From Closterium sp. NIES-65 (taxonomy: Eukaryota; Streptophyta; Zygnematophyceae; Desmidiales; Closteriaceae): a stretch of 64,000 nt of DNA. Position numbers and translations under genes: made by a program. Positions 4,001 to 64,000 of the stretch are shown in pieces (position 1 is the first letter of the stretch; each line of letters begins with the position of its first letter). The notes under the pieces were generated by a model, which ran no database searches, was not told the DNA's origin, and saw only the letters and a list, made by a program, of their open reading frames with translations. The DNA lies in assembly GCA_948144175.1 (NCBI GenBank), contig CANXME010001994.1:186001-250000 (forward strand). The letters are read 5' to 3'.

Positions 4001-4294
4001 CGTCACGAGCGAGGAACCGGCGCTGGTACTCAGCCTCCTGCTCGGAAGTAGGCGGTGGGGAAGTGGGCAGCGGTGAAGGCTGCGGCGGGGCGGGCAGAGC
4101 ACCGGACGCATGCGCAAACAGGTGCACGCCATCCTGGCGCTGGCTCCTAAGGTGGCGTTGGGCCTGCGTCAGCCAGGTACTAAAGTCGATCGCACGCCCC
4201 TCAGGGTCGAAACGGAGCACGCGAGACGTCGCCATGAGGGGCGAGGACAAGTGATAGCGGCCGCCAGCCGCGAGAGGAGGAGGAGAGGGAGGTG

Positions 4295-5706: not shown

Positions 5707-8700
5707 TTAAAGGGCAGCAGGAGCACCAGCTGCAGGCACACCGGCAACACCACCAGCAGCACCGCCAGCAGCAGCAGCACCGCCCCATCGTAAAGCAGAG
5801 GACAAGGGGAAGTCCACATGCACCCAGAAGAAGCAGCGCCCGGTCTCCCTCGTATACACTACCTCTCCCTTCATACTCTTCAGCATCCTCCTCATAAGGC
5901 TCAGCGAGACACCCTCTGCATTACTTCTTAACGCACCGCTCCCCGTGCTCATGCCTCCCACGCTCATCCCCCCGACACTGCCCCCACCATCGCTGCTCGC
6001 TCGACCAAAGCTTCTGTCACCGGAAGCAACGGCAGAGGAGGCAGCAGTTGGGGTGGTGGCGGTGGTGGTGGTGGCGGTGGCAGTAGAGGTGATGGCAGCA
6101 TTGGAGTCAAACATCTGGTTGATTATCTCCTCTGGGAGGCCCCGACCCGTGTGGGAGATTCTGAGAATGGAAGAGAGAGAAAGGGGGGGGGGGGTTGGCA
6201 GAGGGAGAGAAGAGGGGGAGAATGAGAATAGGTTGATGAGGGAAAGTTGGAGTTGAGCACGTGGTGGATGACATCTGTTGGTAGACCCCGACTTTTGAGG
6301 CGCCTCAAAACCGCGAGACATGAGACGACTTTTGAGGCGCCTCAAAACCGCGAGACATGAGACGACTTTTGAGGCGCGTCAAAACCGCGAGACATGAGAC
6401 GACTTTTGAGGCGCCTCAAAAATAGGTTGATGAGGGAAAGTTAGAAGTGAGCACGTGGTGGATGATATCTGTTGGTAGACCCCGACCCATGTGGGAGATT
6501 CTGGGAATGGAAGAGAGAGAATGAGAGCAGGTTGAAGAGGTGAGTCAAGTGCCTTGCTTACATCAAGTTGTTACTTACCTTACAAAGACCCATCATACTC
6601 TAACACACACTTGGTCATTGTGCACCTTACATAGCACCCACCCATCACACACCTTACATCGCGTTCTGTACCTTAGATCAAGTTCTGTACCTCATATCGA
6701 GTCCTGTATTTTGTATCGAGTCCTGTACCTTATATCGAGTTCTGCCATGGTTGTGGTCCCTCGGAAGAGTCGCGACCCCTTTTGAGTCACCTCCAGCTTC
6801 ACCAGCCCCGTGGCCTGCGTGTGGCTCACTGCTGCACACAGCAGCCCGCCCAGAATCTGCGGGAGTTGAAATGAGAGGATGGTAACAGGTTGGCAGAGGG
6901 AAGGGAGAGAGGAATAAGAGCAGGCAGCTTCACCAGCCCTGTGACCTGAGTGTGGCTCACCGCCGCACACAGCAGCCCGCCCAGAATCTGAGAGGGAAAG
7001 CAACAGGGGGTATGAGGAAGGCAACAGGACCCAAGCGGCAAGGGTGTGAAAGCAGAGAGGGTTGAATCTAGCGCCTGCAGTTGACCACCGGTGTGGGCTG
7101 GCTGGTTGGCTGATGACCCCCCCACTGTCAGCTCAGCCCACCCTAGCGTCTGTCCCTTATTCCCTCCCTAAACCTCACCTGCTGCAATCTTGGAGCATCC
7201 CCACACAGTGGCAGGGTAGTTTTGAGAATTCTCAAAACTAATCTCAATCTTGGAGCATCCCCACACAGTGGCAGGGTAGTTTTGAGAATTCTCAAAACTA
7301 ATCTCAATCTTGGAGCATCCCCACACAGTGGCAGGGTCTTCACGTCACTGCCCAGCTCGAGGGTGACCTTGGCGCCCTTGTGCATGGCCAGCAGCGTGGC
7401 CAGCAGCGAGGCCAGCAGTGTGGCCAGCAGCAGAATCACCAGCAGCGTGGCCAGCAGCAGAATCACCAGCAGCGTGGCCAGCAGCAGAATCACCAGCAGC
7501 GCGGCCAGCAGCAGAATCACCAGCAGCGCGGCCAGCAGCAGAATCACCAGCAGCGTGGCCAGCAGCAGAATCACCAGCAGCGTGGCCAGCAGCAGAATCA
7601 CCAGCAGCGTGGCCAGCAGCAGAATCACCAGCAGCGCGGCCAGCAGCAGAATCACCAGCAGCGTGGCCAGCAGCAGAATCACCAGCAGCAGAATCACCAG
7701 CAGCGCGGCCAGCAGCAGAATCACCAGCAGCGTGACCAGCAGCAGAATCACCAGCAGCGTGGCCAGCAGCAGAATCACCAGCAGCGTGGCCAGCAGCAGA
7801 ATCACCAGCAGCGAGGCCAGCAGCAGAATCACCAGCAGCGTGGCCAGCAGCAGAATCACCAGCAGCGCGGCCAGCAGCAGAATCACCAGCAGCGTGGCCA
7901 GCAGCAGAATCACCAGCAGCGCGGCCAGCAGTTTGCTCAAGCAAAACCATTTTTTTTCCCCACCACCTGCCTCTACTCACATTCCTATTCTCTCACCTGC
8001 TGCAATCTCGGAGCATCCCCACACAGCGGCAGCGTCTTGACGTCACTGCTCAGCTCGAGAGTGAGCTTGGCGCCCTTGCGCGTGGCTAGCAGGGTAGCCT
8101 GGCTGATGACTGCCCCACACACGGTCTCCATGGTGAACGGCAGCGTAGCAAGCGGTGCTTGGCTGGAGGGGTGGGGGGGAAGGGAGGACAGGGAGCAAAG
8201 GGTAAGGGAGGGATGTGAAATGGACTTTCAAGAGCAACTAGCATGGCCTCAGCAAGGCCAGACTGATCCCTTGCCCTCACACACTCCCCCACTCACTCCG
8301 CCCCTCGCACTGCCTCACTCCCTCACGCACCTCTGCACACTCACCCCTGTTCGATGGCGAGCATGTCAGTGTCGCTCACAATCTTCCCCAACTGTGTCTC
8401 CAACGACTGCTGAGTCGATTCACCTCTTCCCTAGGACCCCCAACCCGGCCATTCACTCCCTCCCTCACTCCCCCACTCACTCCCTCCCCCGCACACTCAC
8501 CCTTGTTTGATCGCGAGCATGTCAGTGTCGCTGACAATCTTCCGCAGCTGAGTCTCCAGAGCCACGCCCGTGCGCACCCACGGGAGCTGCTTTCCCGAGA
8601 ACCCCACGCCCATCTGCTTTACCCATCCAATGCTTCCCGCTTCACTCCCCATACTCTTTCACCCACTCACAAACCCACTCCCTCGCTCGCTCCCTAACTC

Positions 8701-11700
8701 TCTCACTCCCTCCCTCCCTCCCTCCCTCCCTCACTAACTCCCTCAGACTTGCACCCTTGCACAAGACCTTAAAACTCACCCCTGTTCAATGGCGAGCATG
8801 TCAGTGTCGCTCACAATCTTCCGCAGCTGCGTCTCCAGAGCCACGCCCGTGCGCACCCACGGCAGCTGCTTTCCCGAGAACCCCACGCCCATTTTCTCCA
8901 TGCGCGCAAACGAGTACGCCAGCCCATCCAACGGTCCTCGGCTCATCTCCCTCACATAAGCCACCTGCCTAGCCTTGTCTGAGGCGAGCTTTTCCGCAAT
9001 CTTCTGCTTGTCGACGGCTTGCCGGAGCTCCAGAGAGGCCGTGTGGAGGAAACAGAAGGCGCCCACGACAGAGCTTCCATCTGCTGAATGCCTTGGATGG
9101 ACAGATAACAGCAGCTCCATCAGAGTTCTCTGCGGTGGAAAGGGGTTGGGAGAACAGAAGCAAGGATTAGTGGGAGTTCCAGAGAGGCCGTGTGGAGGAT
9201 GCAGAAGGCGCCAACGACTGAGTTGCCGTCTGCTGAGTGCCGCGGGTGCACGGATAGCAGCAGCTCCATCAGGGCTCTCTGGAAGTGGAGAGTGGTGGGA
9301 ATGGGTTGGGATCATGGAAGCAGGAGTTAGGTTAGGGGTTCCAGAGAGGCCGTGTGGAGGAAGCAGAACGCCCCGACCACTGAGTTGCTGTCTGCTGAGT
9401 GCCGCGGATGCACGGATAGCAGCAGCTCCATCAGGGTTCTCTGCGGTGGAAAGAGGTTGGGAGCGTGGAACCAGGGGTCAGGAGTTCCAGAGAGGAGGTG
9501 TGAAGGAAGCAGAAGGCCCCGACCACTGAGTTCCCGTCTGCTGAGTGCTTGGGATGCATGGATAGCAGCAGCTCTCAACCCCTCTGAACCCCTAACAACC
9601 CTCACCTGGCGGTTGAGGAAGTAGGGGACCTTGACTGCCTCATGCCCAGCCATGGCCTTGCCTGATAACGTCATGAGCTTCGTCATGGTATCACCACACT
9701 CCATACTCCCACCACCTCCCCTTGACTCTCAATCTCGAGTCACGACAAACCTCTCAATCCCTGTAAACCCCTCACCTGGCGGTTGAGGAAGGAGAAGGGA
9801 ACCTTCACAGCCTCGTGCCCGGCCATGGCCTTGTTGATCACAATCAAGAGCTTTGTCATGGCATCGCCACTCTCCGTACCATCTACACCACCGTGGCCCC
9901 ACTAGAGCCCTCCTCCCTCACCCTGCTGAACTTCTCAATCCCTGTAAACCCCTCACCTGGCGGTTGAGGAAGGAGAAAGGAACCTTCACAGCCTCGTGCC
10001 CGGCCATGGCCTTGCTGATGATGATCATGAGCTTCGTCATGGCGTCGCCGCTCTCCATGCGGCAGAGGGAGCCAAAGACGTCCCCGATGAGCATGCGCTC
10101 CCACACCTCAAAGCGCGTGAACCCTGTTACCCTCTCCATCGCCGCGTTCCACTCCGTGCACAGCCCAAACTCTGAGCACCCAAGAGGGGAATCGGGGCAA
10201 GGGGGCAGGAGGGGGGGGGAGAAGAAGGGAAGGGGAAAAGGGGGAAAAAGGAGGGGAGGTAGAACCTGGTCGCTCCCTCCATCGCCGTATTCCACTCCAT
10301 GCAAAGTTCAAAATCTGCACACTCCCCGCCAACCCCACACTCCCCATCCCAACCATCACAACAACCACCACAACCCCAGAGCGTTCAATCAGCTCACCGT
10401 CACAGCCGAAGATGGGGGGGATGAGGGAGCTGTGCGCGTGCACAATGGCTTCATAGCCGCCCTTCACCTTCCTGAACCGGTCCTTCACCACCCTCTCCAC
10501 CGTCACATCCTGTCCCACGAAGCACACCCCCTGCACCTCCTGCTGCTGCTGCTACTGCTGCTACTCACAGCCACACCCACACACATCCACTCCCCATTCC
10601 AACCAACCCAGCCTCAGGGTGTGCCACTCACCATCGCAGCCTCAGGGTGTGCCACTCACCATCGCAGCCGAAGATGGGGGGGATGAGCGAGCTGTGCGCG
10701 TGCACAATCGCTTCATAATCCCCCTTGACCTTCCTGAATTTGTCATTCACCACCCTCTCCACCGTCACATCCTGCCCCACGAAGCACACCCCCTGCACCT
10801 CCTGCTGCGCGTCGCGGCTCACAAACGTATTGGCCAATAGGATCACAGACGACCCCACGTCAATCCCAAGGGCCTCGGCACCGGCTGTAGCGCCGCCGGC
10901 GGTGCTGCCAGCTGCTGCTGTGGCGGAAGCAGCTGCAGCGGCTGCAGCGCTGCCTGTGCTGGCGGTGCGTGCTGAGGGCCCGGAGAGGCTGCGCTCTGTT
11001 CCCCACGAGTGCAGGCGCAGCTGAATGTTGTGTGCCTCGCGCCCTGCCAGAGTGGGGGGGATGGGCGGAGTTGGGGAAAGGGAGAGAGGGAAGAGGGCTG
11101 GTTGGTTCTGTCAATACCCCTGCTGCACTGAGAGGCTGCGCTCCATTCCCCACGAGTGCAGGCGCAGCTGGATGTTGTGCCTCGCGACCTGTGTGGGAGA
11201 GATTTGGGGAAGGGGAAAAGGGAAAGGGCTGGTCCTGTCAATACCCCTGCTCTTGAGGAAGGGGAAAGGGGAAAGGGGAAAGGGGAAAGGGGAAAGGGGA
11301 AAGGGGAAAGGGGAAAGGGGAAAGGGGAAAGGGGAAAGGGGGAAGGGGAAAGGGGAAAGGGCAGCCCTGTGAGCGTCGTCGCCACCTTGTTGTTCCACCC
11401 TTCCACCCTCCCCCCCACCCCACCCACCGTGTGACATTAGAGGGCACACCCACCTTGAAAGGCAAGGTCTAGCGCAGCATGAAGGTGCGTCTTGGATGGC
11501 AGCCCTGTGAGCGTCGTCACCTTGTTGTTCCACCCTCCTACCCACCCCACCCACCCCACCCACCGTGTGACATTAGAGTGCACAGCACAGCCACCTTGAA
11601 AGGCAAGGTTGAGAGCAGCATGAAGGTGCGTCTTGGATGGCTGCCCTGTGAGCGTCTTCGCCACCTTGTTTACACGAAACCCACCAACCGTGTAACACTA

Positions 11701-21526: not shown

Positions 21527-24500
21527 CTACACAAAATAGCCCACAGTTGAAGATAGGTCGTTGATGACCTGCACACGGAAAGAAAGCACAGGTACCGTAA
21601 GCGCAAAAAAGGTGGAAAACTCAAAATGCAAGTTCACTCACCCATGTTAAAACTCTAGCTGCTACGCAACCAAAGGCCTCATAATATCTGCATGATGTAC
21701 AATATTACAATAGCTAACACCTCTCATATTCAACCCCTCTACTCACCTCCAGCTGCTCCGCACTGAACGCCTCCTTGTGGATGTGCCAGCTGCAGGCGTG
21801 CGTGCGCAGCACTTACCCCGACTTTTCGAAGGTTCTCAATATAGTCACCCCCACTACTCACCTCTAGCTGCTAGGTTCTCAATATACTCACCCCCACTAC
21901 TCTACCTCTAGCTGCTAGGTTCTCAATATAGTCACCCCCAATCCTCACCTCTAGCTGCTAGGTTCTCAATATAGTCACCCCCAATCCTCACCTCTAGCTG
22001 CTCCGCACTGAACGCCTCCTTGTGGATGCGCCAGCGGTCCGAGTGTGTGCGCAGCACTTTATCCCCCCCAACAGTCAGCCCCCCCTCCCTACGCGCCCCC
22101 ACCACTCACCTCTAGCTGCTCCGCACTGAACGCCTCCTTGTGGATGTGCCAGCTGTCGGCGTGTGTGCGCTTGAAGTCCCCCAGAGCCTTCCCCACCGCA
22201 GGCCCAACTGGAGCAGGCTCTCCTGCCAGGCTGGCAAGCGACAGCAGCACGTCTGGTAACCAGCTGGGGAGAAGCAAATGTTGCAGAAACGGAGAGAATA
22301 ATGGGGTGTGAGTGAGCCCTCTCAGTTGCACGCCCAACTGGGGCAGGCTTTCCTGCCAGGCTGGCAAGCGACAGCAGCACATCTGGTAACCACCTGCACA
22401 TCAACAAATATTCGGAAACCCGAGAAAAATGAAGGAGAATGAACCCTCTCAGTTACACGCCCAACTGGAGCAGGCTCTCCTGCCAGGCTGGCAAGTGAGA
22501 GCAGCAAGACTGGTGACCACCCGCATGGATCCGCATGGTTGGAGAAACAGAACCGGGGAGTGGGCTCTGTTAGTCACATACTATCAAGCTCACAGGCTTT
22601 CCTGCCAGGCTGGCAAGTTTCAGCAGCATTTCTGGTAACCACCGGAACACCGAAGCATGCCGATTTCAACGCTCGAGTTCCTATGTGATTTTTCAGGCAT
22701 GACAATCGTCTCACTTTTGTATGCTAACTGTGCACTGAATACTGCATGCTTCTGCTATTGGAGCAGATCTTACAGGGGAACATCGTATGGTGCTGATCGC
22801 ACGGCAGCTGCAAGCCCAAGCGCCGATCCATGCATCTTGACCGTCCGTGCTGCCGCCTTGGCTGCCGAGTCAGCATCCAACGGTTTTCCCCCACTGGCCC
22901 GTCTGCGGGAGGTTCTCGAGGCCTTGAGCGTGGCTGCAGCTGATTGGATGAAGCTCTGGCGAATGACAGCAGGCCACGTGTCACCCTGTTGGGCTGCCTT
23001 GAAAAGGCCTGCCAGCGTGGTGGATGCCATGTCACGCACCTGTGACAGGTTGAGAAAACAAGGGAATGAACGTATGAGAAGGGGGTGAGGGGAAAAAGGG
23101 GAAGGAATGCACTGCCAGAAGCAGAAAGAGACAAAAAACCATGGGGACATAGAAAGAATACGAACGAATAGTGGCAGACAAAGCAGCGGTGGCGACAAGT
23201 AGTATAGCATGATAGTGCAAGGAGAGAGAGGTGTGTGCATTGAAGAGCAGAAGCAACTGTGTTGCCAGGCATTATGGCGGGCAGACAAAGCAGCGGTGTC
23301 GAGGAGTAGTAGTTTTATAGTATAGCGGCATAGTGCAAGGAAAGAGAGGTGTGTGCATTGGAGAGCAGAAGCAATCCTGATGCCGGGCATTATGGCGGGC
23401 AGGCAGTGATGGCTCGTGACAGATTTTTGAGGCGCCTCAGAGCCAATCCTGTTGCTGGGCATTACGGCGGGCAGGCAGTGATGGCTCGTGACAGATTTAC
23501 CGCAGTTACCACGTGTCAAGGTTCAGGGTTCAGGTGTGTATACCTCTGGCTGTGGGTCTTGCAGGCAGGTAATGACTGCTTCACGGAGCGATGAGAGGTC
23601 GGCGGGTGACAGAAGGAAGCCATTGCTGCAAAAGAAAGAGGATGGAGATGGGAGTATGGTGGTTAGTCAAGCGGCACCGCTGCTGCTGCTGCTGGCATGG
23701 TGGCTGCTGCTGCTGCTGCTTCTGCAGCCAAAGCAGACACCTTGAAGCACCAACTCACCGAAAGACAAAGGACTGGCAGAGCGAGAGAGCAGCAGCCCTC
23801 TCCTTCCAGTTGCCCGACTGTGCTGCTGCCTGCACCGCCGCTGCTGCTGCTGGCACGGCGGTTGCAGGGAGGGGCAGGTACTTGGTGTAGGCGAGACATT
23901 GCTTGGCGAGGAGAGAAAGGTCCGTGTTGGGGGTTTCCTGAGAAAAGGGAAGGACAATGAGAGGTGGAATGAGAGGCAGGTTGAGGTGGAAAAGGCACAG
24001 AAAGTTGTCGACTCCAGGTATGGTGATTGCAGGGAGGGGCAGATACTAGGTGTAGGCAAGGCATAGCTTGGCGAGCAGTGAGCTCACAGGAGGAACACAT
24101 TTTTGAGGCGCCTCAGAAATGGACTTGACGACAGACATGAGGAAACTAATTTTGAGGCGCCTCAAAAACAGACTTGACAACAGACATGAGGAATCTATTT
24201 TTGAGGCGCCTGAAAAGCAGGTACTTGGCGTAGGCAAGGTAGTGCTTGGCCTTGGCGAGCAGTGGGCTCATGAGAAGCACACATCAACGTGAGGAACACT
24301 GCCCAACAAGCGTACCTGGATGGAGAGCAGAGGTGGCAGCAGAGCGACGATCGTTGGGAGGAATGGAGGAGCGTCTCCCGACTTGACAGCAGACATGATG
24401 AAGTAGAGAATCTGAGGGGGTGAAAAGGGTTGGGAGGGGTGGGGAGGAGTTGGGAGGTTGTTATAAGAGTGAATAGAGGAAAAACAACGGAGGGGCGTCT

Positions 24501-27500
24501 CCTGACTTCACAGCGGACATGAGGAAGTAGAGAATCTGCAGGGGCGAAGAGGGGTTAGGAGGGGTTAGGAAGTTACAATTCGAGTAAAGAAACGTGGGCG
24601 GGAGGCGGGCGTTGAAGTTTAGCCAGAAGTTATTCGAAACCAAGCACATGCGTTGTGATAGAGGCTTTTGAGTCGACTCAAAAGCACATGCGTTGTGATA
24701 GAGGCTTTTGAGTCGACTCAAAAGCACATGCGTTGTGATAGAGGCTTCTGAGTCGACTCAAAAGCACATGCGTTGTGATAGAGGCTTTTGAGTCGACTCA
24801 AAAGCACATGCGTTGTGATAGAGGCTTTTGAGTCGACTCAAAAGCACATGCGTTGTGATAGAGGCTTTTGAGTCGACTCAAAAGCACATGCCGTTGTGAT
24901 AGAGGCTTTTGAGTCGACTCAAAAGCACATGCGTTGTGATAGAGGCTTTTGAGTCGACTCAAAAGCACATGCGTTGTGATAGAGGCTGCCCTCACGAGGC
25001 TGCCCTCACAAATGAACATTGATCCATGGAGGCTGCCCTCACAAATGAACATTGATCCATGGAGGCTGCCCTCACAGATGAATTCTATAATGCACCTATA
25101 CGCAAGCACATGCGTCGCGTTTGCTAAAAATGTAGGTTGATTTTCAGAATTCTGGCAAACAACCCACACTCCTGTCCTCCCCATAAAAAAAGTAGGCCCT
25201 CATCCTTTGCATGATATAGAACAATACGGAAATTGCCTAAAACCGATTCTAAAAACATGGGTTTTTTACGGGGAAAGCACTCACCGATTCCATTGTCCAC
25301 ACGCTCTTGTCCTCTTCAGATCCCTCCCTCCCTGCTTCACTGCTCTCCTCATCCCCTCCCTCCTTCCCCTCCACCACCCCTTCCATCTCCCCCTCTTGTT
25401 TCTTCGAACCCTCCTTTGTCTCTTTCTGCTGCTCGGTGCTGCTTCCCATGGACTTGATCACTGTAGCAGCTTTGGCAGCTTCTGCCAAGATATGATTCGA
25501 CAGGCTGGCAGTCGCAGCAGCAGACACGGAAGAGGAGGAAGAGGCCGAACCAGCGAATCTAGTGCTGAGTGCAGCCAGAAGAGCAGATAACACCTCCCCC
25601 AGAAGCTGACGAACCTGTCTCGCGCTATGCGTCATCAGCCCCTTAGCTTCATCTGCCAATCTCACAAGGAAATCCAATTCCTCCTCAGCTTCCTTCTGCT
25701 GCTCCTTACTTCCAGGCTCAGACCTTCCCTCCCCTTGCCCCATCTCCCCTACCGCCACCACCAGCAGCATCAGACGTTTCGCCTGCTGACCCGATGCTGC
25801 ATTTCCCGGAAGCTTCTCCAGAAGCTTCTCCCGCACGAGCCGCTGAATCCTGCCCCTCACTCCCCCTCCTCCTCCCCTTCGTCCATCCCCTCCCCCGTCC
25901 AATTCCTCTGCCCCAAATTCCTTACCACTCACATCCTGTCTCCTCCTAGTCAAGACATATCTCACACATGTGGCCCAGTCGGTTTGAGATTCCACGGAGC
26001 AATGCAGAATGGCTTGGTGGAACAGACGAGCCAACCAACCAGGAGCGGGAGGATTCAGCGACGGTGAGGAAGAGTCAGAACCAAGAGGAGCCTCTGCTTC
26101 CGCCCTGGCCCGAACCTGGTTCTCAGCCTCGGCCAGTACCTCTGGCTCAGGCTCGGCACACCAGGCGTGCAGCACACCAGGGTGTGCAGAGGCAAGGAGG
26201 CCTGCGGTGATCTCTGCTGCTGCGCTCTGTGCTCCCTTGTCAGTCTCTTTGGATACCAGGTCTTGCAGGCATGGGTGGAGTGCGTGCAGGAAGGCTGTCA
26301 CTGCTGCTGTGCTGCCAGGTGCGGCGCCAGATGCGTTACTATCAGTAGCAGCGTCTGCAGCTGCAGGGGAATCGGCAGCAGCGCCAGCACCAGCAGCAGC
26401 AGCAGTAGCAGCAGCAGCACCAGCAGCAGCACCAGCAGCAGCAGCAGCACCAGCAGCAGCAGCAGCACCAGCAGCAGCACAAGCTTGCACGAGCAGCTCA
26501 AAGAGCATCGCATTCGCCACCACAAATGAGGACGACTGCGGACAGGACGGCACCAACCCCCGGGACCTGCTCCTCGGCCAATCTGAGAGCAGCGCTGACG
26601 TGGCAGACGCTCCAAGCCCCGCGCTGAACAGTGCGGATACTGTAGCTCCAGGATTGTCGCCCCCGCCCGCCCCATTCCCCCCTCCCCCTCCGCCAAATAG
26701 ACCCGCTAGCCTTCCCCCGCCGCCCCTGCCCCTCCCCCGCCCGTTTGCCCCTGAAGGGAGATCTCCGGATTGATGGTCGAGTGAGAGATGGGAAGTGAGG
26801 GAGGAGAGGAAGGAGGGAGATGTGAGGAGGGAGAGAGGGAGGGGAGGAGGAGTGAGTGAGGAGGAGAGCGCAAGAGATTGGAGGGGAAGAGGAGGAGGAG
26901 GAGGAAGTGGGGAGGATGAAGGGAGAGAGGCGAGGAGGGGAGTTTGGAGGGAAGGGGGGAGGAGGAGGAGAAGCGCGGAGGTGGCGAGAGGGCGGAGGAG
27001 AGGGAGAGGGCCAGCAAGGAGGCTCAGGTAATGCAGAGGCAGGTATGGGGTCTGCTGTTGTGGAAGAGGAGGAGGAGTAAGTGGAGGAGGTGAGGTGGAG
27101 GGGACGGAGGAGGAGAGGAGGGCGAGTAGTGCATTGGCCATGAGAGCGTACCTGGGAGAGAGGGAGGGGGAGAGGAGGGAGACAGGAAGGTTGGCTGGGG
27201 AGTTTTGAGGCGCCTCAGGAGAGGAGGGCGAGCAGTGCATTGGCCATGAGAAAGAGAATAGCGTATCTGGAATAGAGGATCGTAAGAATTCTCCTTAGCT
27301 GCAGCTCGCCCAGTCTCATGGCTGAGAAAGAGAATAGCGTATCTGGAATAGCGGATCGTAAGAGGAAGAATGCACGGGGAGGGAACGGGCAAGGGGCGAG
27401 GGAAAAGGTGGGGGGTGCAGGGGGGTGAGAAAGGTGCTAATGAGCAGCGCATTGGCTATGAGAGAGTATCTGGGAGAGAGAGGAGGGTTCGATGAGTAAT

Positions 27501-39500: not shown

Positions 39501-42500
39501 TGTGAGGGAGGGTAACCAGGGAGAAGGAGGGGGTGATACTGAGTAAGCACAAATTAACGGAATCTTTATTAGCCGCTTTGATGAAACGAAAATGTGGCTG
39601 CTGCATGCATTGTGTTTTAGCGATACGATTTTCAGGAATTTACGGAACAATGTTGCAAAACACACCTTCTGGGACGTGGATGAGAAGGCCGCATCGATAA
39701 GCGCGATGAGGCGGTTTTTATGTGCTATCAAAGCAGAGCCACTAAAGGGGACAGCGTTGCTGACGAGATGCATGTGGAAGAGAACAGTGGCCTCCTGAGT
39801 TGTCGACAGCTGATTGGCTGGCAGCTGCGCGGGCGGGAGCAACAGGGGAAGGGAAGGTCGGCAGACGGCAATAAGGAAAGTGAGATAATGGAGATGGTGG
39901 GGAAACTCATGATGTTGCAGGATGTTTTTGAGAATCCTAAAAAAAACCCTGCAACACGATGATGGAGATGGTAGGGAAACGCATGAACTGGTGCTAAAAG
40001 TCACAGAGATGTGAAAGGAAATATTACGCAGGCAACCATTACTGCTCTTTTCTTTACTGCTCGTCCTCACCGCTCTTCACCGCTCGACGCCCCACTCTAC
40101 CACTCACTTTCAGTGCCTCCCCTGCATCCGCAGCAGCAGCAGGAGACTCAGCAAGCACCAGGAATGACGTGGCAAGCAGCGATTGGAGGAGGGACATGGC
40201 AGAATCCATGACTCCGGCAAGGATCCGAGTGCAGGTGGCCTCAGGAGCAGCATAGGCCAGAGCTGCCACGAGTGTGCCGATCTCCTCCTCACACCCGCGG
40301 ACGACAGAGCTGGACACAAAGCGCTCCACCCTTGAGATGACCTGTTGGGTGGTCAGGAAAAGCAGAGGGAGGAGCAAATCCTTAGTAAAAGGCATCAGGA
40401 GCAGCATACGCCAACGCTGCCACGAGTGTGCCGATCTCCTCCTCACACCCGCGGACGACAGAGCTGGACACATAGCGCTCCACCCTTGAGATGACCTGTT
40501 GGGTGGTCAGGAAAAGCAGAGGGAGGAGCAAATCCTTAGTAAAAGGCATCAGGAGCAGCATACGCCAACGCTGCCACGAGTGTGCCGATCTCCTCCTCAC
40601 ACCCGCGGACGACAGAGCTGGACACATAGCGCTCCACCCTTGAGATGACCTGTTGGGTGGTCAGGAAAAGCAGAGGGAGGAGCAAATCCTTAGTAAAAGG
40701 CATCAGGAGCAGCATACGCCAACGCTGCCACGAGTGTGCCGATCTCCTCCTCACACCCGCGGACGACAGACCTGGACACATAGCGCTCCACCCTTGAGAT
40801 GACCTGTTGGGTGGTCAGGAAAAGCAGAGGGAGGAGCAAATCCTTAGTAAAAGGCATCAGGAGCAGCATACGCCAACGCTGCCACGAGTGTGCCGATCTC
40901 CTCCTCACACCCGCGGACGACAGAGCTGGACACATAGCGCTCCACCCTTGAGATGACCTGTTGGGTGGTCAGGAAAAGCAGAGGGAGGAGCAAATCCTTA
41001 GTAAAAGGCATCAGGAGCAGCATACGCCAACGCTGCCACGAGTGTGCCGATCTCCTCCTCACACCCGCGGACGACAGAGCTGGACACATAGCGCTCCACC
41101 CTTGAGATGACCTGTTGGGTGGTCAGGAAAAGCAGAGGGAGGAGCAAATCCTTAGTAAAAGGCATCAGGAGCAGCATACGCCAACGCTGCCACGAGTGTG
41201 CCGATCTCCTCCTCACACCCGCGGACGACAGACCTGGACACATAGCGCTCCACCCTTGAGATGACCTGTTGGGTGGTCAGGAAAAGCAGAGGGAGGAGCA
41301 AATCCTTAGTAAAAGGCATCAGGAGCAGCATACGCCAACGCTGCCACGAGTGTGCCGATCTCCTCCTCACACCCGCGGACGACAGAGCTGGACACATAGC
41401 ACTCCACCCTTGAGATGACCTGTTGGGTGGTCAGGAAAAGCAGAGGGAGGAGCAAATCCTTAGTAAAAGGCATCAGGAGCAGCATACGCCAACGCTGCCA
41501 CGAGTGTGCCGATCTCCTCCTCACACCCGCGGACGACAGAGCTGGACACATAGCGCTCCACCCTTGAGATGACCTGTTGGGTGGTCAGGAAAAGCAGAGG
41601 GAGGAGCAAATCCTTAGTAAAAGGCATCAGGAGCAGCATACGCCAACGCTGCCACGAGTGTGCCGATCTCCTCCTCACACCCGCGGACGACAGACCTGGA
41701 CACATAGCGCTCCACCCTTGAGAGCACCCGTTTGGCTCGCAGGGCAGAAAAGGGAACGAGCAATCGCAATTTCATACTGTAAGGCATCAGGAGCAGCATA
41801 AGCCAGCGCTGCCACCACTGTGCCGATCTCCTCCTCACACCCGCGGACGACAGAGCTGGATACATAGCGCTCCACCCTTGAGATGACCTGTTGGGTGGTC
41901 AGGAAAGGAATGGGGGAAAGGTATCCCATACTATAAGGGCTCAGGAGCAGCATAGGCCAGCGCTGCTGCCACTGTTCCAGTCTCCTCCTCGTACCCGCAG
42001 ATGACAGAACCGGATACGTAGCGCTCCACCCTTGAGAGCACCTGTTTGGCGCACAGGGCAGAATGAGGAAAGAGCAATTTCATGCTATTCGGCCGCAAGA
42101 GCAACATTTATGCAGCGCTACCACCACTGTGCCGATCTCCCCCTCACACCCGCGGACCACCGTGCCGGAGACATAGCGCTCCACCCTTGAGAGCACCTGG
42201 AGGGAAAAACACACAGAGTGGGGATTGATTGGAGAAGGGACAAGAGAGGAGGAGAGGCTAGAGGAGGAATCGGGCGCAGCATAGGACAGCGCTGCTGCCA
42301 GCACTGTGCCGGACGAGTGGGAGGCGAGAAATGTTGATGTTACTTTTGAGAATTCTCAAAAAGAATCGGGCGCAGCATAGGCCAGCGCTGCTGCCAGCAC
42401 TGTGCCGGACGAGTGGGAGGCGAGAAAGGAAGTGAGTGAGAGGATAGTAAGGAAGCGAATGAAGGAAAAGAATGAGAAACTGGAGAGTTACCTGATTGAG

Positions 42501-50529: not shown

Positions 50530-50539
50530 TTGTAGCAAA

Positions 50540-50910
50540 GTGGGTGGATGGTGGCTGGAAGGGGTCGCTGTTGAGCTGGATAGATTCACTGGGAAGCTTG
50601 AAAGAGCCGTGGCAAAAGCCCTTAGGGAGGGGGTGTGACTGTAACGAAGTGGGTGGTGGTGGGAGTGGTGATGGGCTGTGATTGTAATAAAACTTCAACT
50701 GCTGCTGTAGGGTGGTGGTTGAGCTGGATAGATTCACTGGGAAGCTGGAACGAGCTGTGTAGCCAGCCATTAGGACGAGGTGTGATTGTAACTTAGAGTC
50801 GAGTCGACTCAAAACTCGCGGCAGCTTGCTAACCTGGAAGGGGCGCTTTTTGAGCTGGATATACTTACTGGAAAGCTGGAACCACCTTTGGTGAAAGCCA
50901 TCAGAGAAGG
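50540..50910 (+). repeat. Three echoes of the BLOS2 last exon beyond its stop codon
   Basis: Copies of the segment coding VVELDRFTGKLERAVAKA at about 50557-50640, 50705-50770 and 50838-50905, separated by GTGGGTGG-type spacer. The last junction carries GAGTCGAGTCGACTCAAAACTC (about 50797-50818), a variant of the TCGA palindrome. The nearest copy keeps the frame to a stop codon. Confidence 0.9.
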
Positions 50911-51439: not shown

Positions 51440-51761
51440 TGCTGTTCTCTAATCTCTGTAACAAGTCTGCAAATTCTGCATGACCAGCAGCCACCAGGTT
51501 CCACTCCGCCCACTCGTCTCAATACGACCGGGGGACGACACCTCCTTTATAGCCTCAGTCAGAAGTCGCCTGCAGTGCGTGGCAACTCCCGTAACAAACC
51601 CTCAAACTCCCCATGAGCAGCAGTGACCAGGTCCCACTCCACCCACTTGTCTCGGTACAGCCCCGCGGAAGGCCTCTTTCAGCCGCCTCACTACTTTGTT
51701 GCCGCCTTCAGAGCCAACATTGAGCGATGAGGGTGTTTTTGAGAATTCTCAAAAACACCCT
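51440..51761 (-). repeat. 3' echoes of the FMO last exon and a 32-bp palindrome
   Basis: Beyond the FMO stop codon lie two diverged copies of the coding end (YRDKWVEWDLVTAAHGEF at about 51590-51690; DEWAEWNLVAAGHAEF at about 51440-51550). Between the gene and these is a perfect 32-bp palindrome (51730-51761) centred on GAGAATTCTC. Confidence 0.9.
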
Positions 51762-51784
51762 GAGAAGCACAAGGCTGACACGAG

Positions 51785-54700: not shown

Positions 54701-57700
54701 ATCCGAACGTACAACTCAGTTCAAACTCTAGACGAAAGCAAACATGTTTCGGCTTTGCACGGGGATCATACCCGCTAGGCCTTCATCAGTGCAAGAGTTC
54801 AAAGTGAAAGAGCGAACAAGCAAGGGGTCTTTAAGATGAAAAAGATGAAGGGGCGCAGGAAGGGGCGAGATGAGGGGACAGAGAAGTTACACGACAGTTG
54901 TTGATGGAGGGGAGGGTGGAAGGGGGGGGGGGGGGCGAGGAAGAGGAAGGGTAGTAGTAGTTATGTTGGGGGGGAGAGACGGGGGGGAGAATGGGTGGGG
55001 CGGGGTGGGAGGATGAGGGGACAGACGGGGTGAAAGCAACTGCTTATGGGAAAGGGTTGGGAAGAAACTGCTTATGACGTGGTGAAAGAAACTGTTTATT
55101 AAAGCACCCTACTGCACATGGAATGGGCAAGAACGAGTCCATGTGATGTCAGCACAGGCAGTAGGGTTTTTTTGAGAATTCTCAAAAAAACCCTACTGCT
55201 TATGATGCGCTAAAGCACCCTATTGCACATGGAGTGGGCAAGAACGAGTCCATGTGATGTCAGCACAGGCACAGACACACACCCGGTGCAGTGCATGATG
55301 ACGTCAGCATGGCATGTGAACCCATCTTCAAACTCCACCGTCCCATCTGCGTTGGCTTGCTTGATCTGCGCTCGCGTGCAGTGGGGCGGAAGGGGCGGCA
55401 GGGGGGGAGGGGGGGAAGGGGCAGAAGGGGCGGAAGGGGCGGAAGGGGCGGAAGGGGGGGAAGGGGCGGAAGGGGGGGAAGGGGGGGAAGGGGAGGGGCA
55501 GACGGGGCAGAAGGTGCAGAAGTGGCGGAAGGGGCAGAAAAAAGTGGGGGTGGGAGGAATCCTTGAGGCGCCTAAGAAAATCAGGAGAGGAAAAAGAGGC
55601 AGCTCCTCCCACCTGCACATTCAAAGAACCTCTGGATAAGTGAACACTGGGTAAAAGAGCAGGTGAAGCAGAGGAGGTCCAGGCAGAGCAGCTAAGGGTG
55701 CGTGCGCGCAGGTTTTTGAAACGCCTCATATTTTAGGCGCCCCAAAAATTGAAGCAGAGGAAGTCCAGGGAGAGCAGGCAGCTACGGTTGCGTGCGTAAA
55801 GGTTACTGACCATGGGGTGCTGCTGCACTCTGCTCTGCCTTTCAGATCCTCCAAGTGTCCAGCAGCATTACCTCCAGCTAAGGCCGAGAGCAGCTAAGGG
55901 GGAGGAGAGCAGCGTGCGAGGTGGGTACTAACCATGGGGTGCTGCTGCAATGTGCCTCTGAGATCCTCGAAATACCCCGTCTCTATTGCTGAAGGGCAGA
56001 GAAGGTAAGTAGAGGAGGTAGCTAAGGGGGAGAGAAGTATGTGTGGTGAGGCCACAGCTACTAACCATGGGGTGCTGCTGCACTCTGCCTTTCAGATCCT
56101 CGAAATACCCCGTCTCTATTGCCCCGGTGGCTGCACCAGCACCAGCACCAGCAACAGCAGCTGCAGCGGCAGGAGAAGAGCGCCAGCCTCGCGCGCAGAT
56201 GTGCACCTCTCGTGCCACTGCTGCCACCTCCCTCGCTATGTCCTGCCCACTCGCCTCTGCGCCCACCACCACCACCACCTGCCATGGGGTGGGATGGGGA
56301 GAAGAGAAGTTTGAGATGTGCAAGCGCCAGTGTTCCACCAACATCTTCCGGCCCCCACCTTCCCGCGCGCAGATGTGCACCTCTCGTGCCACTGCCGCCA
56401 CCTCCCTCGCTATGTCCTGCCCACTCGCCTCTGCGCCCACCACCACCACCACCTGCCATGGGGTGGGATGGGGAGAAGAGAAGTTTGAGATGTGCAAGCG
56501 CCAGTGTTCCACCAACATCTTCCGGCCCCCACCTTCCCGCGCGCAGATGTGCACCTCTCGTGCCACTGCGGCCAGCTCCCTTGCTATGTCCAGCCCACTC
56601 ACCTCCGCGCCCACCATCACCACCACCTGGGAAGGCATGGGATGGGGAAACAGGCATGCAAACGAGCAACAGAGACGGCAAGTTCAGGAGACTGTTTTCC
56701 TTTGTTAGGGAGACAAAAGAGATGAGAAAGGAGAGAGAAAAGAGAAGAGAAAAGAGAAGAGAAAAGAGAAGAGACTTCTTTGATAGAAGAGACTCTGACG
56801 ATGCGTCTTGAGACCCCTCTTTCCTCTCCAATGAAAGACAAGAGACTCCTTTTACAACACAGTGCTGAATATGTGTTTTAAGAATGTGCAAACCCCTCTC
56901 CTCCCATCTTGCCTGCAAACCCCCCTCGCCTCACCTTGCGTGCAAACCCCTCTGGGTGGCGCCTCACCTTGCCTGCAAACCCCTCTGGGTGGCGCCTCAC
57001 CTTGCCTGCAAACCCCTCTGGGTGGCGGTAGTTGTGGCTGTGCATCTGAATGCCTGGCCACGTGTCCACACCTGTTTGGTTGGGATACAGAAATCAGGGG
57101 AGACAAGCATGGGGGAGTAAAAGAGGAGGGTGAGATCTGCAGCCCACTCTCCTTCATACAGAGGAGTGATTTTCTCCTCTCTTCCTCACACAGGTGACTT
57201 TTGAGTCGACTCATAAGTCACCTCGAGGGTGAGATCTGCAGCCCACTCTCCTTCATACAGAGGAGTTGTTTTTTCCACTCTTCCTCACACAGGGAAAATG
57301 GCACACTTGGTTCATGCGTCAGCAGCCAACTGACTACCTCAACTACCCACTCTCACACTCACTCACTCACTCACTCAGTCATTCACTCTCTCACTCACTC
57401 ACCCACCCACTATCACCCACCTGGTAACAAACCTGCCCCCCGTTACAGTCTCACCCGCTATGCTTGCAATCTTGGGCTGTGAATAGTGACCGTTACACAC
57501 CACCAATACATCAAACTCCCTCTCCTCCTCCCCTTCCTCCGCCCTTACCTCCCTCTCCTCCTTTCTCCCTTCCTCCCTCCCTTCCACCCTCTCCCCATTC
57601 CCAATCCCTCCTGCTGCACCTGCCGAACCTCCTAAACTCCCTCTATCCGCACTAATACTCCTATGCAGTCTAGACCGAGCAATCTTAAGACGCCATCTCA

Positions 57701-59330: not shown

Positions 59331-62300
59331 ATGGGGTCCTCTCCCCCAGGTTCCGCCGTTACCTCTTCTATAACTTCCGCGGAAACTCCGCCAATTGCGG
59401 GGAATACACCCACTGCACCTGGCGCTGACCTAACGGTCCCTGCTCTGTCAGCTGACGTTGCGGCAGCTCCGGCAGCAGCGGCGCCGCCAGCGGAAATTGC
59501 AGCAGCTCCCGCGGACGGTGGAAAGCAGGCGGAAACCCCAGTAGCGGCCGTGCCGCCTGCAGAGGTTGTAGCGGCTGTAGCGGCGGAGGTTGCGGCTGTA
59601 ACGGCGGGGGGTGCGGCTGTAGCAGCGGGGGGTGCGGCATCAGCGGACGGCGGAGAGGGGCCGATGTGGAAGACGACTCTGTGCTCGTTCTTCCGCAAGC
59701 ACGGGGAGTGCAAGCACGGCGCGCGGTGCAAGTTCGCGCACGGGGAGGCGGAGCTGCGCGCGCGCCCGGACGGGTCGTTTGACCCCACGTCCGCGCGCGG
59801 AGGGGCTAAGCGGAGCGAGGCAGGGGAAGGGGATCAGAGCAATAAGGGGAGGAATCGGGGGAGGAAACGCGGAGGGGGAGGGTCTTGGGGAAGAGAGGCA
59901 GAAGAAGCGGAGGGTGGCGGGGACGAGGGGAAGGAAGGCGGGGCAGGGGGGGACGGCGAGTGGAGTCGGCTTTGCGTGCAGAACCTACCAAAGTGGTGGA
60001 ATGTGAAGCACTTTCGCGAAATGCTAAACGAAATGGTGCGAACAGGTTACATGCCACTACGAGCATGGATTTAAGGCAGAGGGAGACGAAAACACTGCAC
60101 CTTAAAAAAAAAACACCAAGATTGCTGCAGCTCAAATTTCAAAACCCTCCCTCAGCAAGATACAAGATAAGGCAGATTGAGGACGACGTTCCAACCCAAA
60201 ACCCTTCGCCAAACCCCTGAACCGCTAAACTTTCCCCCGCTAAACTCTAGTTCGCTATACCCCATCCATTGCCGATAGTTTCCACACTCACACTCCACAA
60301 TCCAGCGCTCCATCCAAAACCTTTCTTGCATAAAACCCTCAGGTTCCCAAACCAAAGGCGTGTTCCTGATCCCTTGACCTGTTATTCTGGGGCTGTTTGG
60401 TGGGCGGCAGAGTTTGGACTATTGCGGGTCGAGGAAAAGCCAGGGCGTGGCGTTTGGATTTGTATCGTTTGAGTCAGCTACCGCAGCAGACAAGGCCACT
60501 CAGGTGGGCAGGGGAAGCAGGCTAGAGTGGGGGAGCAGGTGAAAAGGGGGATTCATGGGGTGAGGGGAGTAAAGGTGAGGGGGGGAAGGCGGGTGAGGAG
60601 GGGACGGCGGGTGAGGAGGGGTAAGCGGGTGAGGAGGGGTAAGCGGGTGAGGAGGGGTAAGCGGGTGAGGAGGGGAAGGCGGGTGAGGAGGGGAAGGCGG
60701 GTGAGGAGGGGTAAGCGGGTGAGGAGACTGCAGGCAGCGCAGAGCGGTAGCAGAGGTATCTTCAACAAGGCATATTGATGTTACTTTTGAGAATATCTCA
60801 AAAGCAACATCAACAGAGCGGTACCAGAGGTAACTTCATCAACGCACATCACACCCACACGCTTCTCCCCTCCCCCCAACCCACCCCCACCCCAACCCCC
60901 CCCATCTCCATCCCCCACCCCCATGCTCACGACTGCTGCATGGTAAGGCAGTGAGGACCCGATTGCTGGACGTGCAAGCAGGGCGGTTTGTAAGGCACAT
61001 GACAACTACCATACCCATCCACAACCCCACCCCTCATACCCCCACACCCAACCCCACCCCCCCACGCTGGACGTGCAACCAGGGCGGTGTATGGGGCACA
61101 TTACCTCTTCCATACCCATCAACACCCCCACCCCCACCCCCACCCCACCCCTCCCACCCCGCACGACTGCAGCTGTTGCATGGCTAGCAGGTGAAGAACC
61201 AGACGCTGGACGTGCAACCGGCATGGTGTAAGGGGCACATTACAGCTAGATTATCCCACCTCCACACCCAACCTCACACGCTAACACACCCCCACCCCTC
61301 CTCCCACACCCCACGAGAGCAGCTGCTGCACGGCAAGCTGGTGAGGAACCAGACGGTGGACGTGCAACTGGCGCGGTATGTAAGGCGTGTTAAACCAAAC
61401 ATACCCACTCCACTCCCACGAAACGCCCTCACACCCAACCCCACTCGTCTCACCTGCAGCTGTTGCGGGGCAAGCAGGTGAAGAACCAGATGCTAGACGT
61501 GCAGCCGGCACGGTACCGCACTCAGAAACAGACAGCTTTTGCCGCCCAGGAGGGCGGCGAAGGGCATGAGGACAAGAAGAGAAGAACGGAGGGGGAAGGA
61601 ATGGGGGACGCAGGGGAGGATGGTGGGAAAGAGGAGGGCGAGAGAGGTGGGGAGGGTGAGGATGAGGAGGAAACGGAAGAGACGGATGGGGAAGGAGAGG
61701 ATGGGGGAGAGGGAGGCAGAGGAGGAGAGAGGGAAGGGGAGAAAGCAGAGGGGAGGGTGAAGAAGGAGGCATGGGAGGCGGTGACGCCACTGGCGAGGAT
61801 GGGGTATCAGGAACAGCTGGAGATGAAGGGAGGGAGAGTGGCGAAGGATCTGCAGCGGATTGTGACGAAGATGAGGAAGCTTTACTCGAGAAAGAGCTTT
61901 GCTCAGCTGCCTGAATGGATCAAGTCTGCTAAAGCGAGAGGTGAGTGAGAGGGGTGACCGCAAAGGGGCGAGTGAGAGGCGAGAGAATGTAGCAAAGGAG
62001 CTGCAGCGGATTGTGACCAAGATGAGGAAGCTTTACTCGAGAAAGAGCTTTGGTCAGCTGCCTGAATGGATCAAGTCTGCAAAAGCGAGAGGTGAGAGTG
62101 TGTACAAGGACCTTTTTCCGATTGTGAAGAAAAGAGAAGCCGTATGTAAGGATTGCTCAACGGCCTGAATGGATCAATACTGCCAGAAGTGAGAGGGGAG
62201 GTGAGGGAGGGGTGCGAGGAGGTGAGAGAGCGTCAGCGCGTTGCAAAAGAGCTTTACCCAAAAGAGCTTTGCCCAAAAGAGCTTTGCCCAAAAGAGCTTT

Positions 62301-64000
62301 GCCCAACTGCCTGAGTGGATCAAGAGTGCCAGGGAGAAAGGTGAGGGCGAAAGGTGCCAGGGAGAAAGGTGAGGGCGGGGTATGGGAAAGTGAGACTGGG
62401 TGGGAAGGAAATCGGTTTTGAGACGTCTGAAAACCAATCTTAATTCACGAAGGTGAGACTGGGTGGGAAGGAGCTACACCCTGGCCTGGGTGATCACAGA
62501 TTCGGTTCAGGGTTTTGGGTTTTGGGTTTAGGGTTTCCCCATCCTGAAACACCCAACCAGCCGTTTGCAGCTAATGCAACAAGTGCAAGTTCTCCTTCCT
62601 TTCTTCCTCCTTCTCCCTACCCATTAAACCCCTATCCCCACAGCCCACCTCCCCTGCACCTTTGAGAGAATCCATGCCTCACCGGTGGTGGACAGTTATC
62701 CACATGATAAAAGTAGAGATTTGAGAAGTCTCAAAAATCCCCACAGCCCACCTCCCCTGCACCTTTGAGGGAATCCATCCATGCCTCACCACCAGTGGTG
62801 GACGGTTATCGCAACAAGTGCAAGCGTGGTCAACAGCTGTAGCCTGTACACTCCATCTTCCACTTTATCCCCCCACGCATCCCTACACAGCCCAGCCCAC
62901 CTCCCCTGTGTGTTTGAGGGAATCTACGCATCACCAGTGGTGGACGGTTATCGCAACAAGTGCATGTCCTCTGTTGTTGTACCCTCATTCTCACACCCCA
63001 TCCCACCCCCCACCCCACAGCCCACCTCCCATGCGTGTTTGAGGGAATCTACGCCTCACCAGTGGTGGACGGATATCGCAACAAGTGCGAGTTCTCCATT
63101 GGACCCTCTGCTGCTGGTCAGCCCACCGTCGGATTCCTTCTCGGAAACTTCCGGTGAGAAGCATACGCTGTTCGGGCAGGCATGTCAGCAATAAGAGAGG
63201 CAATGGAAGGGGGTCATAGCGTGTTTTTTGAGAATTCTCAAAAAACACGCTCTGCAATGGAAGGGGGTCATATATCAGACGCGTTTCATCTTGCTGTCTG
63301 CCCCCTTGTTACATCTTCTCACATCTTGCCTCATCGCATCTCGTCTTGTCACACCCCATCTCTTTCTTCTCTTGTCCATAGCGATGGGGTGACAGCTGTG
63401 GCTGGCTGGCAGCGTCTTTTGAGGCGCCTCAAAAGGGCAGCGCCGTTGGTGGTGTGCTGGAACATTTCCCGACATTGGGGACATGCACTTGTTGCGATAA
63501 CCGTCGACCACTGGGGACCCTGTGGTCGATTTTCGAGTCGACTCAAAAAGGGACCCTGTGGTCGGGACGTGCACATGTTCCTCGCCAACGCCTTTTCACG
63601 GCTGATGCAGAGGGTGTTGTGAGGGTCTCAGGTCACACCTTTCCCAGCTCACCCTGCTCCTTCCTACCTTCCCCCCCAATTCCAGCGACGGAGTGACAGC
63701 CGGGGTGTCCAAACATCTCCCCCATCGCCATCGCCTTTGCACGCCTGGTGCACCCCGGGTGGTGTGAGGCTCGAGTCAAACATGCCCCTGCCCACGCTGC
63801 TCCCTCCTGCCGTCCCTCTCTCCCCCCCCTCCCCCCAGCGATGGCGTGACAGCAGTGGCAGAGCCGTCAGGCTGTCGAAACATCTCCCCCGTAGCCATCG
63901 CCTTTGCACGCCTGGTGCAGGGGGTGGTTCGAGAATCACCCTTGGCTGCGTGGGACAAGGTCAACAACCGGGGCTTCTGGCGGTTGCTCACGGTGGGTGG
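59331..64000 (+). CDS. TRM2A: tRNA (uracil-5-)-methyltransferase, TRM2A type, 5' part
   Basis: SAM-dependent enzyme forming 5-methyluridine in tRNA (family knowledge; TRMT2A/Trm2 group), cut by the right edge. Exons seen: 59331-60035, 60411-60503, 61460-61940, 63021-63153 and 63839 onward; phases agree. Order of parts: an Ala-rich N-terminus; a CCCH finger (C-x8-C-x5-C-x3-H in CSFFRKHGECKHGARCKFAH); a Gly/Arg/Lys linker; an RRM (RLCVQNLPKWW...GVAFGFVSFESA...VKNQMLDVQPAR); a Glu/Gly-rich acidic insert; VTPLARMGYQEQLEMK; and the start of the methyltransferase fold (SPVVDGYRNKCEFSIGP, PTVGFLLGNFRDGVTAV, FWRLLTV). Plants such as Arabidopsis carry the same CCCH plus methyltransferase layout. The catalytic Cys and SAM motifs lie beyond the window. 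Start: ATG at 59331. Confidence 0.92.
60575..60730 (+). repeat. 18-bp minisatellite in TRM2A intron 2
   Basis: About nine copies of GGTGAGGAGGGGTAAGCG and variants. Each contains GGTGAG, so it may be another expanded donor-like array, though no exon edge is recognisable in it. Confidence 0.9.
60735..60845 (+). repeat. Direct repeat around an imperfect AATATT-type palindrome
   Basis: CAGAGCGGTAGCAGAGGTAT and its near copy flank GATGTTACTTTTGAGAATATCTCAAAAGCAACATC (about 60776-60811), a hairpin with 17-bp arms and one mismatch. Confidence 0.88.
60925..61440 (+). repeat. Four upstream echoes of TRM2A exon 3
   Basis: Copies of the acceptor and exon start (LHGKLVRNQTVDVQLARY and similar) at about 60933-61000, 61062-61100, 61168-61235 and 61318-61390, with period 110-150 bp, each truncated after 40-70 bp. 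The intact exon is the next unit downstream. Confidence 0.9.
61945..62345 (+). repeat. Downstream echoes of TRM2A exon 3
   Basis: A close copy (about 61990-62091, KELQRIVTKMRKLYSRKSF...) and two shorter ones (about 62155-62200, and 62235-62341 with a 16-bp GAGCTTTGCCCAAAAG array inside) repeat the exon end LPEWIKSA(K/R) plus GTGAG donor. Confidence 0.9.
62400..62490 (+). repeat. Direct repeat joined by an ACGT palindrome
   Basis: GTGAGACTGGGTGGGAAGGA occurs on both sides of TTTTGAGACGTCTGAAAA (about 62414-62431, one mismatch), within TRM2A intron 3. Confidence 0.88.
62640..62960 (+). repeat. Three upstream echoes of TRM2A exon 4
   Basis: Copies starting at about 62641, 62742 and 62888 repeat the acceptor and the exon start (CCCACCTCCC...GGAATC..TCACCAGTGGTGGACGG). 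The first two are joined by GATTTGAGAAGTCTCAAAAATC (about 62715-62736). The intact exon starts at 63021. Confidence 0.91.
63190..63280 (+). repeat. Direct repeat around a 34-bp perfect palindrome
   Basis: GCAATGGAAGGGGGTCAT occurs on both sides of a perfect 34-bp palindrome (63218-63251) centred on GAGAATTCTC, in TRM2A intron 4. Confidence 0.95.
63375..63785 (+). repeat. Echoes of TRM2A exon 5, an inverted echo of exon 4, and two palindromes
   Basis: Copies of the exon 5 start (GVTAVAGW at about 63383; GVTAGVSKHLPHRHRLCTPGAP at about 63690) lie upstream of the intact exon. TTTTGAGGCGCCTCAAAA sits at 63417-63434 and TTTTCGAGTCGACTCAAAA at about 63531-63549. The latter stands between two copies of GGGACCCTGTGGTCG. 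At about 63470-63525 a piece of exon 4 (VVDGYRNKC) is present in inverted orientation. Confidence 0.87.

Follow-up and report, generated by a model that had tools for sequence, protein, structure and literature searches.

Ultra-short palindromic elements are already known from organelles. The organelles of Volvox carteri possess short palindromic repeats, which are hairpins of 10–100 nt with a common core, lie in introns and spacers, and are regarded as selfish; they propagate in organelles with loops that are mostly TAAA or TTTA, and the available text of that report describes them as inert in the nucleus (PMC2670323). The GC clusters of yeast mitochondria, such as GC42, are tiny palindromic mobile DNAs that are GC-rich, are flanked by AG or ACT, show a putative target duplication, and merge as units (PMC4478555). 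The available text of the two reports leaves the mode of movement open for both the Volvox repeats (PMC2670323) and the yeast GC clusters (PMC4478555). In mouse and human cells, the fill-in of staggered breaks is described as generating tandem duplications of tens of bp (PMC8355091). For Closterium, which is placed in the Zygnematophyceae, we found no report of nuclear palindromic elements in the open-access literature.

In this study, we analyzed a 64-kb stretch of Closterium DNA (hereafter the window), which is nuclear DNA with intron-bearing genes for phytochrome, PSME4, and FMO (Table 1). An earlier note on this DNA described a palindrome family, TTTTGAG-N4-CTCAAAA (hereafter P). We give close to an even chance to the reading that P represents a family of ultra-short palindromic (hairpin) elements without coding capacity that have spread in the Closterium nuclear genome and were captured at filled-in staggered breaks; the mechanism, the donor, and the enzyme are what we infer from data covering the 64-kb window.

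The PSME4 protein P0122 of strain NIES-65 is 100% identical to the window over one 224-residue stretch, which places the window in NIES-65 or very near it, although the records from which those proteins derive may be different ones. The FMO protein P0005 of NIES-65 has 16 PEGFA units of an 11-residue repeat, versus 3 in the window (approximately 4 when decayed units are counted), which are encoded by a 33-bp array of about 4 copies inside the FMO gene (56887–57027); thus, the copy number of this array varies. The plus-strand gene at 59–64 kb could not be named from domain or protein matches beyond its CCCH zinc finger, and neither known RNA families (at the gathering score) nor tRNAs were found in the window. 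A Copia-type retrotransposon lies on the plus strand within a PSME4 intron (31442–35704) and has one open frame of 1420 codons with gag, integrase, and reverse transcriptase domains. On the minus strand, another Copia-like stretch spans 1560–2315 and perhaps extends to 4466; integrase domains are located in 1563–2315, and no Pfam family was found in the possible extension (2319–4466). Tandem arrays include a 154-bp unit repeated 12.7 times at 40237–42199, which is mostly intronic and whose units echo one PSME4 exon (P0121 residues 690–725), a 30-bp array of 10.8 perfectly identical copies at 36850–37173, and a 27-bp array of about 18 copies at 7388–7931, which adjoins a phytochrome exon echo and has several open frames. 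A short run at 62510–62545 resembles TTTAGGG, the telomere repeat of plants.

P occurs in 26 exact copies in the window and gives 42 matches when up to two mismatches are allowed, versus a mean of 0.16 and a maximum of 2 in 100 dinucleotide shuffles, which confirms that the family is real. Every perfect palindrome in the window that reaches 18 bp includes the P core; there are 25 of these, ranging from 18 to 42 bp, while 20 shuffles averaged 0.2. Among the dispersed 14-letter words, defined as non-repetitive words found in at least three places spaced over 1.5 kb, 10 of 11 correspond to P; apart from the remaining word, which is pyrimidine-rich, no other dispersed word family was found in the window. 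The 42 matches group into 21 loci, one of which (TTTTGGG-CCGC-CTCAAAA at 28131) was excluded because its center is not self-complementary and the best nearby repeat is 8 bp long and non-adjacent; we take this match for chance. The 20 loci retained, or 23 (one per 2.8 kb) with three more degenerate or odd-centered ones (at about 50795, 55714, and 60785), agree with the 20 or more loci counted in the earlier note, two of whose positions are corrected here (57198 to 57199 and 62414 to 62416).

A chance origin of P is ruled out by the shuffles and by 120 chance matches listed from viral contigs. Half-sites were rejected as seeds of P because they are not enriched (9 observed versus 7.6 expected); only whole palindromes are. 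As for foreign sources, tandem P arrays were absent from the viral contigs scanned, and the single bacterial tandem-array match, in Bacteroidetes contig L121, consists of GAGAGCTCTC repeat units that are unrelated by eye and form a short array (L121:494–690).

Table 1. Palindrome loci and genes in the window.
Position	Feature	Strand	Remark
5645–5714	GCGC-type palindromes in a cluster of three: one has one mismatch, the other two are more decayed		3' end of phytochrome gene
6228–6486	65-bp repeat, four GCGC palindromes with 19-bp spacers, 65-bp repeat; 93.8% identity		
7185–7337	33-bp repeat in three copies, two 24-bp AATT palindromes between		within phytochrome exon echo; empty paralogue 7992–8099
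23372–23496	53-bp repeat, decayed GCGC palindrome, 53-bp repeat		
24039–24290	62/74-bp diverged repeat around three GCGC palindromes, 31-bp spacers		adjacent-repeat test not passed
24644–24986	22-bp repeat in nine copies with 8 TCGA palindromes; 18-bp inserts		
27203–27220	decayed GCGC palindrome, PSME4 intron		18-bp repeat some way off
36654–36686	ACGT palindrome between 6-bp repeats, PSME4 intron		
37991–38270	TCGA-type palindromes with GTG/CAC outer arms, 3-unit array, PSME4 intron		
38770–39473	8 palindromes (7 TCGA, 1 TTGA) alternating with exon 3' end and splice donor, PSME4 intron		
39884–39986	imperfect AATT-type hairpin (45-bp insert) between 29-bp repeats		at least half seen in NIES-64 gene model
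42267–42427	AATT palindrome with one-sided outer arm TGTTGATGTTAC, between 65-bp repeats		
50790–50816	degenerate TCGA-type copy		
51728–51764	32-bp AATT hairpin, only 4-bp repeat, FMO 3' flank		
55100–55271	42-bp perfect AATT hairpin with non-palindromic tail, between 61-bp repeats, FMO intron		
55664–55777	two strongly decayed GCGC-type copies between 28-bp repeats		
57126–57293	TCGA palindrome with TGAC/GTCA arms, between 69-bp repeats, FMO intron		
60742–60846	hairpin with 5-nt center AATAT, core arms intact, outer arm TTGATGTTAC; 31-bp diverged repeat		
62386–62472	ACGT palindrome between 24-bp repeats		
62634–62810	AAGT-centered palindrome between the copies of a 67/74-bp exon-echo repeat		two empty paralogues downstream
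63200–63272	34-bp perfect AATT hairpin between identical 19-bp repeats		
63408–63442	GCGC palindrome between 7-bp repeats		
63514–63564	TCGA palindrome between identical 15-bp repeats		
17.9–5.7 kb	phytochrome gene	minus	protein matches, Closterium strains
48.5 to ~26 kb, perhaps beyond	proteasome activator PSME4 gene	minus	protein matches, Closterium strains
58.4–51.8 kb	flavin monooxygenase gene FMO	minus	protein matches, Closterium strains
59–64 kb	gene with CCCH zinc finger	plus	domain match

The centers of P are GCGC at 6 loci, TCGA at 5, AATT at 5, ACGT at 2, and AATC and AAGT at 1 each. Self-complementary centers are thus found at 18 of the 20 loci, AATC and AAGT being the exceptions, versus 2 of 120 chance matches from viral contigs (the first 120 matching stretches among those listed). 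As the self-complementary centers are of only four kinds, the count of 18 in 20 overstates how much independent evidence there is for symmetry. In a pairing analysis of the 18-mers (13 distinct rows, 500 shuffles, five measures), 90.6% of cells were paired and 10 cells showed a two-sided change, neither of which was reached in any of the 500 shuffles, and the covariation score was above all 500; two other counts were ordinary, namely 2 pairs with two-sided change and 6 pair types. Palindromes can stay symmetric through template correction, and a copy that templates its other half would drift symmetrically in its center and outer arms. Hence, the switching of the centers between symmetric tetramers can also be explained without the special process that the earlier note invoked.

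The 18-bp size given earlier applies to the core, whereas many palindromes are longer, for example 32 bp at 51730, 34 bp at 63218, and 42 bp at 55158. At these three copies the outer arms are mirrored; they read AGGGTG before T5 at 51737 and AGCGTG before T6 at 63226, each with its mirror on the opposite side, and the two have AG-G/C-GTGT in common. Likewise, the outer arm TTGATGTTAC is common to 42344 and 60785, being one-sided at 42344, while other loci show little symmetry beyond the core. Because the outer arms are mirrored and partly common between loci, we consider the copies to be members of a hairpin family rather than locally templated: the P core is the constant part of this family, and the outer arms diverge. 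Copying of the outer arms from local hairpins is disfavored, as the arms are not local sequence and some loci have them in common. The same features, together with the recurrence of one core, leave the earlier suggestion of hairpin-primed repair, taken as repair from local flanks, unsupported.

Conserved arms around a variable, symmetric spacer also look like a dimer site, and P could be a functional binding site, e.g., of a dimeric protein, that was spread by tandem duplication and kept by selection. We judge this to be very improbable: dispersed copies have unrelated local repeats on either side, decay is seen in several of them, and the outer arms vary by locus.

The copies of P were tested for adjacent direct repeats by one fixed procedure, in which a score of 12 or more counts. 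Such repeats were detected at 14 of the 20 loci. Among 300 control blocks taken from this window, 41 had one, and among the 120 chance matches listed from viral contigs none did. With hand-set limits at 19 loci, repeat lengths run from 4 to 69 bp (median 33), and no fixed duplication length was found among them. The claim that most copies lie between direct repeats of 20–75 bp is accordingly retained as to adjacency, but the fixed test detected no adjacent repeat at 6 of the 20 loci and the length range is wider at its lower end; taken singly, the shortest repeats (4, 6, and 7 bp) carry little weight. Single inserts between the repeats measure 18–50 bp (18 bp at 24666). Purines are weakly favored at the left target boundary (p 0.0035, versus p 0.20 at the right boundary and p 0.09 for the two together), so the cut might be guided and the breaks not random; the target consensus at P sites is weak and one-sided. 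The inserts at 6293–6421 and 24101–24216 have the form P-spacer-P-spacer-P with a spacer that differs from the flanking repeat, and the spacer of the latter resembles sequence near 24378.

Local duplications without P are very common in the window, which means that duplication needs no P and that the flanking repeats could be partly independent of it. Hairpins provoke slippage, and P may have come first, with its hairpin later provoking replication slippage or breakage that duplicated the neighboring DNA. The existence of repeat-plus-palindrome arrays and the rampant local duplication are in line with this order of events, as are the ages of P and its repeats, which are not clearly tied. The flanking repeats of a copy differ by 0 to 18%, and among the 16 loci with repeats of at least 15 bp P arm mismatches tended to increase with this divergence, though not significantly (Spearman rho 0.43, p 0.09; rho 0.40, p 0.14 without 24101; rho 0.58, p 0.02 without 60785). 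However, a lone P located exactly between two repeats would require two jumps, and the empty paralogues described below carry one repeat and no P. We therefore regard slippage at a pre-existing P as improbable.

Empty sites were predicted by joining the flanks of the 20 loci in silico, and paralogues of the joined sequences were sought within the window. The empty site predicted for 7220 has a single 33-bp repeat and lacks P; it aligns with the phytochrome exon at 7992–8099 over 108 bp without gaps at 88.9% identity. The site predicted for 62719 with refined limits aligns gapless across the right repeat edge to two other echoes of the exon that the 62719 repeat itself echoes. The 36661 paralogues aligned only with many gaps, the 38043 alignment was only partial, and the remaining 16 of the 20 loci had no usable paralogue in the window. 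The sites at 7220 and 62719 are paralogues, not alleles. These paralogues, in place of the alleles or sister strains named in the earlier note, show a single-copy repeat without P at both loci, and the note's idea of a process that inserts a palindrome while duplicating the target gains support.

The main rival that remains is a miniature transposon or a reverse-transcribed hairpin RNA: P would be a remnant or miniature of a real transposon, or a copy of such an RNA, moved by the enzyme of a larger element elsewhere, and the repeats would be target-site duplications. The direct repeats and empty sites suit this reading, the one-sided arm at 42344 compared with 60785 resembles end truncation, and the purine bias at the left boundary points the same way; the variable repeat length would be easier to reconcile with target-primed reverse transcription than with a cut-and-paste transposase. 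We nevertheless think it unlikely, with perhaps one chance in several, because the repeats range from 4 to 69 bp, there is no poly-A or fixed terminus, and the window holds no larger element with P ends. Neither Copia-like stretch contains a P match.

The mapped phytochrome, PSME4, and FMO genes and their immediate surroundings contain 26 of the 44 listed P positions, and none of these 26 overlaps a mapped exon (one alignment kept per exon, 11.2 kb in total); the other 18 lie in regions of unmapped exons, namely PSME4 below 26 kb and the plus-strand gene at 59–64 kb. Positions 7280, 39290, and 39379 touch exon-echo alignments that were left out of the exon map. The earlier statement that all copies are in introns or 3' flanks is upheld for the mapped exons but has two exceptions. 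The 39926 position touches an exon of the NIES-64 gene model, and a decayed third copy at about 5699–5714, which is not among the 44, overlaps the phytochrome frame at its end and includes the stop codon. The orthologous phytochromes P0127–P0129 have the same APAAL C-terminal residues, and because the proteins of Yama58-4 and NIES-54 share this ending, the stop is old. Ordinary introns also occur in the stretches that lack P, which measure 16.2, 9.5, and 8.5 kb, so the absence of P from intergenic DNA tells little.

Protein models of other strains contain suggestive traces of P. The NIES-64 model P0126 has no complete P-encoded motif; it reads DSQN into the 39926 copy, covering approximately half of that palindrome, and this copy is thus probably common to NIES-64. 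The NIES-54 phytochrome model P0128 has LTFETSQK, the expected translation of an ACGT-type P, in an intron where the window (10170–10400) has no P, which suggests one difference in P position between strains. The P-encoded motif was absent from nine other Closterium FMO and PSME4 proteins and from P0127, P0129, and P0131. These traces also bear on the possibility that P is a sequencing-adaptor or assembly artefact, since short palindromes with restriction-site centers resemble linkers. The copies bear independent mutations and sit in diverged repeats, and signs of the family appear in gene models from NIES-54, reported as sequenced with PromethION and short reads, and NIES-64, reported as sequenced with PacBio (PMC10407611). 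An artefact is therefore hardly credible.

In the break-capture reading that we tentatively favor, the element would exist as a short DNA that is self-complementary, or as a hairpin copied into DNA; a strand that is palindromic can pair with itself and so readily gives a duplex or hairpin, as DNA folding also indicates. It would be joined into double-strand breaks with staggered ends, whose fill-in would yield the 4–69-bp repeats and trap the palindrome between them; tandem arrays could later arise through amplification of the repeat-palindrome unit. The recognized or copied part would be the constant arms, while the center and outer arms could drift yet stay symmetric if each copy templates its own other half. 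Break capture draws its support from the frequency and exclusivity of the core, the self-complementary centers, the pairing measures above all shuffles, the lack of enriched half-sites, the adjacent repeats at most loci, the single inserts, the two empty sites, and the traces in protein models. Against it, the window showed neither a donor molecule nor an enzyme or master copy, and the two P-spacer-P-spacer-P inserts are not single elements. The 6 loci that failed the adjacent-repeat test, the abundance of duplications lacking P, the loose tie between palindrome decay and repeat divergence, the two ordinary pairing measures, and the purine bias also count against it.

A bolder proposal is that P is a nuclear selfish DNA of 18–40 bp with no genes or transposase of its own, which multiplies by the capture of a self-complementary duplex or hairpin into staggered breaks, each event fixing a tandem duplication of tens of bp. 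We hold this to be rather unlikely. If true, a selfish palindrome would be a main source of local duplications, exon echoes, and arrays in close algal relatives of land plants. More generally, a nuclear family this dense, with long flanking duplications and empty sites, would make the question of movement directly testable across the several sequenced Closterium strains and would link a mobile sequence to how small tandem duplications arise.

MITEs and fold-back transposons have inverted repeats, are non-coding, and are flanked by duplications of characteristic length, and their outer termini are conserved. P resembles them in its inverted repeats, flanking duplications, and lack of coding capacity, whereas, unlike in MITEs, its inner core is conserved, its outer arms vary, and its duplication length is not fixed (4 to 69 bp, 19 loci). 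Unlike introner elements, the 18-bp P core has no splice-site pair by inspection; at 38770–39473, the splice donor belongs to the duplicated repeat, not to P. The variable duplications at P would suit SINEs and LINEs, which use target-primed reverse transcription; a poly-A or fixed 3' end was not seen at P. The small tandem duplications attributed to CST/polymerase alpha-primase are similar in that direct repeats of tens of bp arise from filled-in break ends, but the available text describes no conserved palindrome at their junctions (PMC8355091), and the P loci have one. P resembles the yeast GC clusters as a tiny palindromic DNA with putative target duplication and, in some inserts, several units; in contrast to them, it has TTTTGAG arms and flanking repeats of 4–69 bp and is nuclear. 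Like the Volvox organelle repeats, P is a short hairpin-forming family in non-coding DNA where exons are mapped; unlike them, it is nuclear and intronic and consists of perfect palindromes with GCGC, TCGA, AATT, or ACGT centers, alongside repeats of up to 69 bp.
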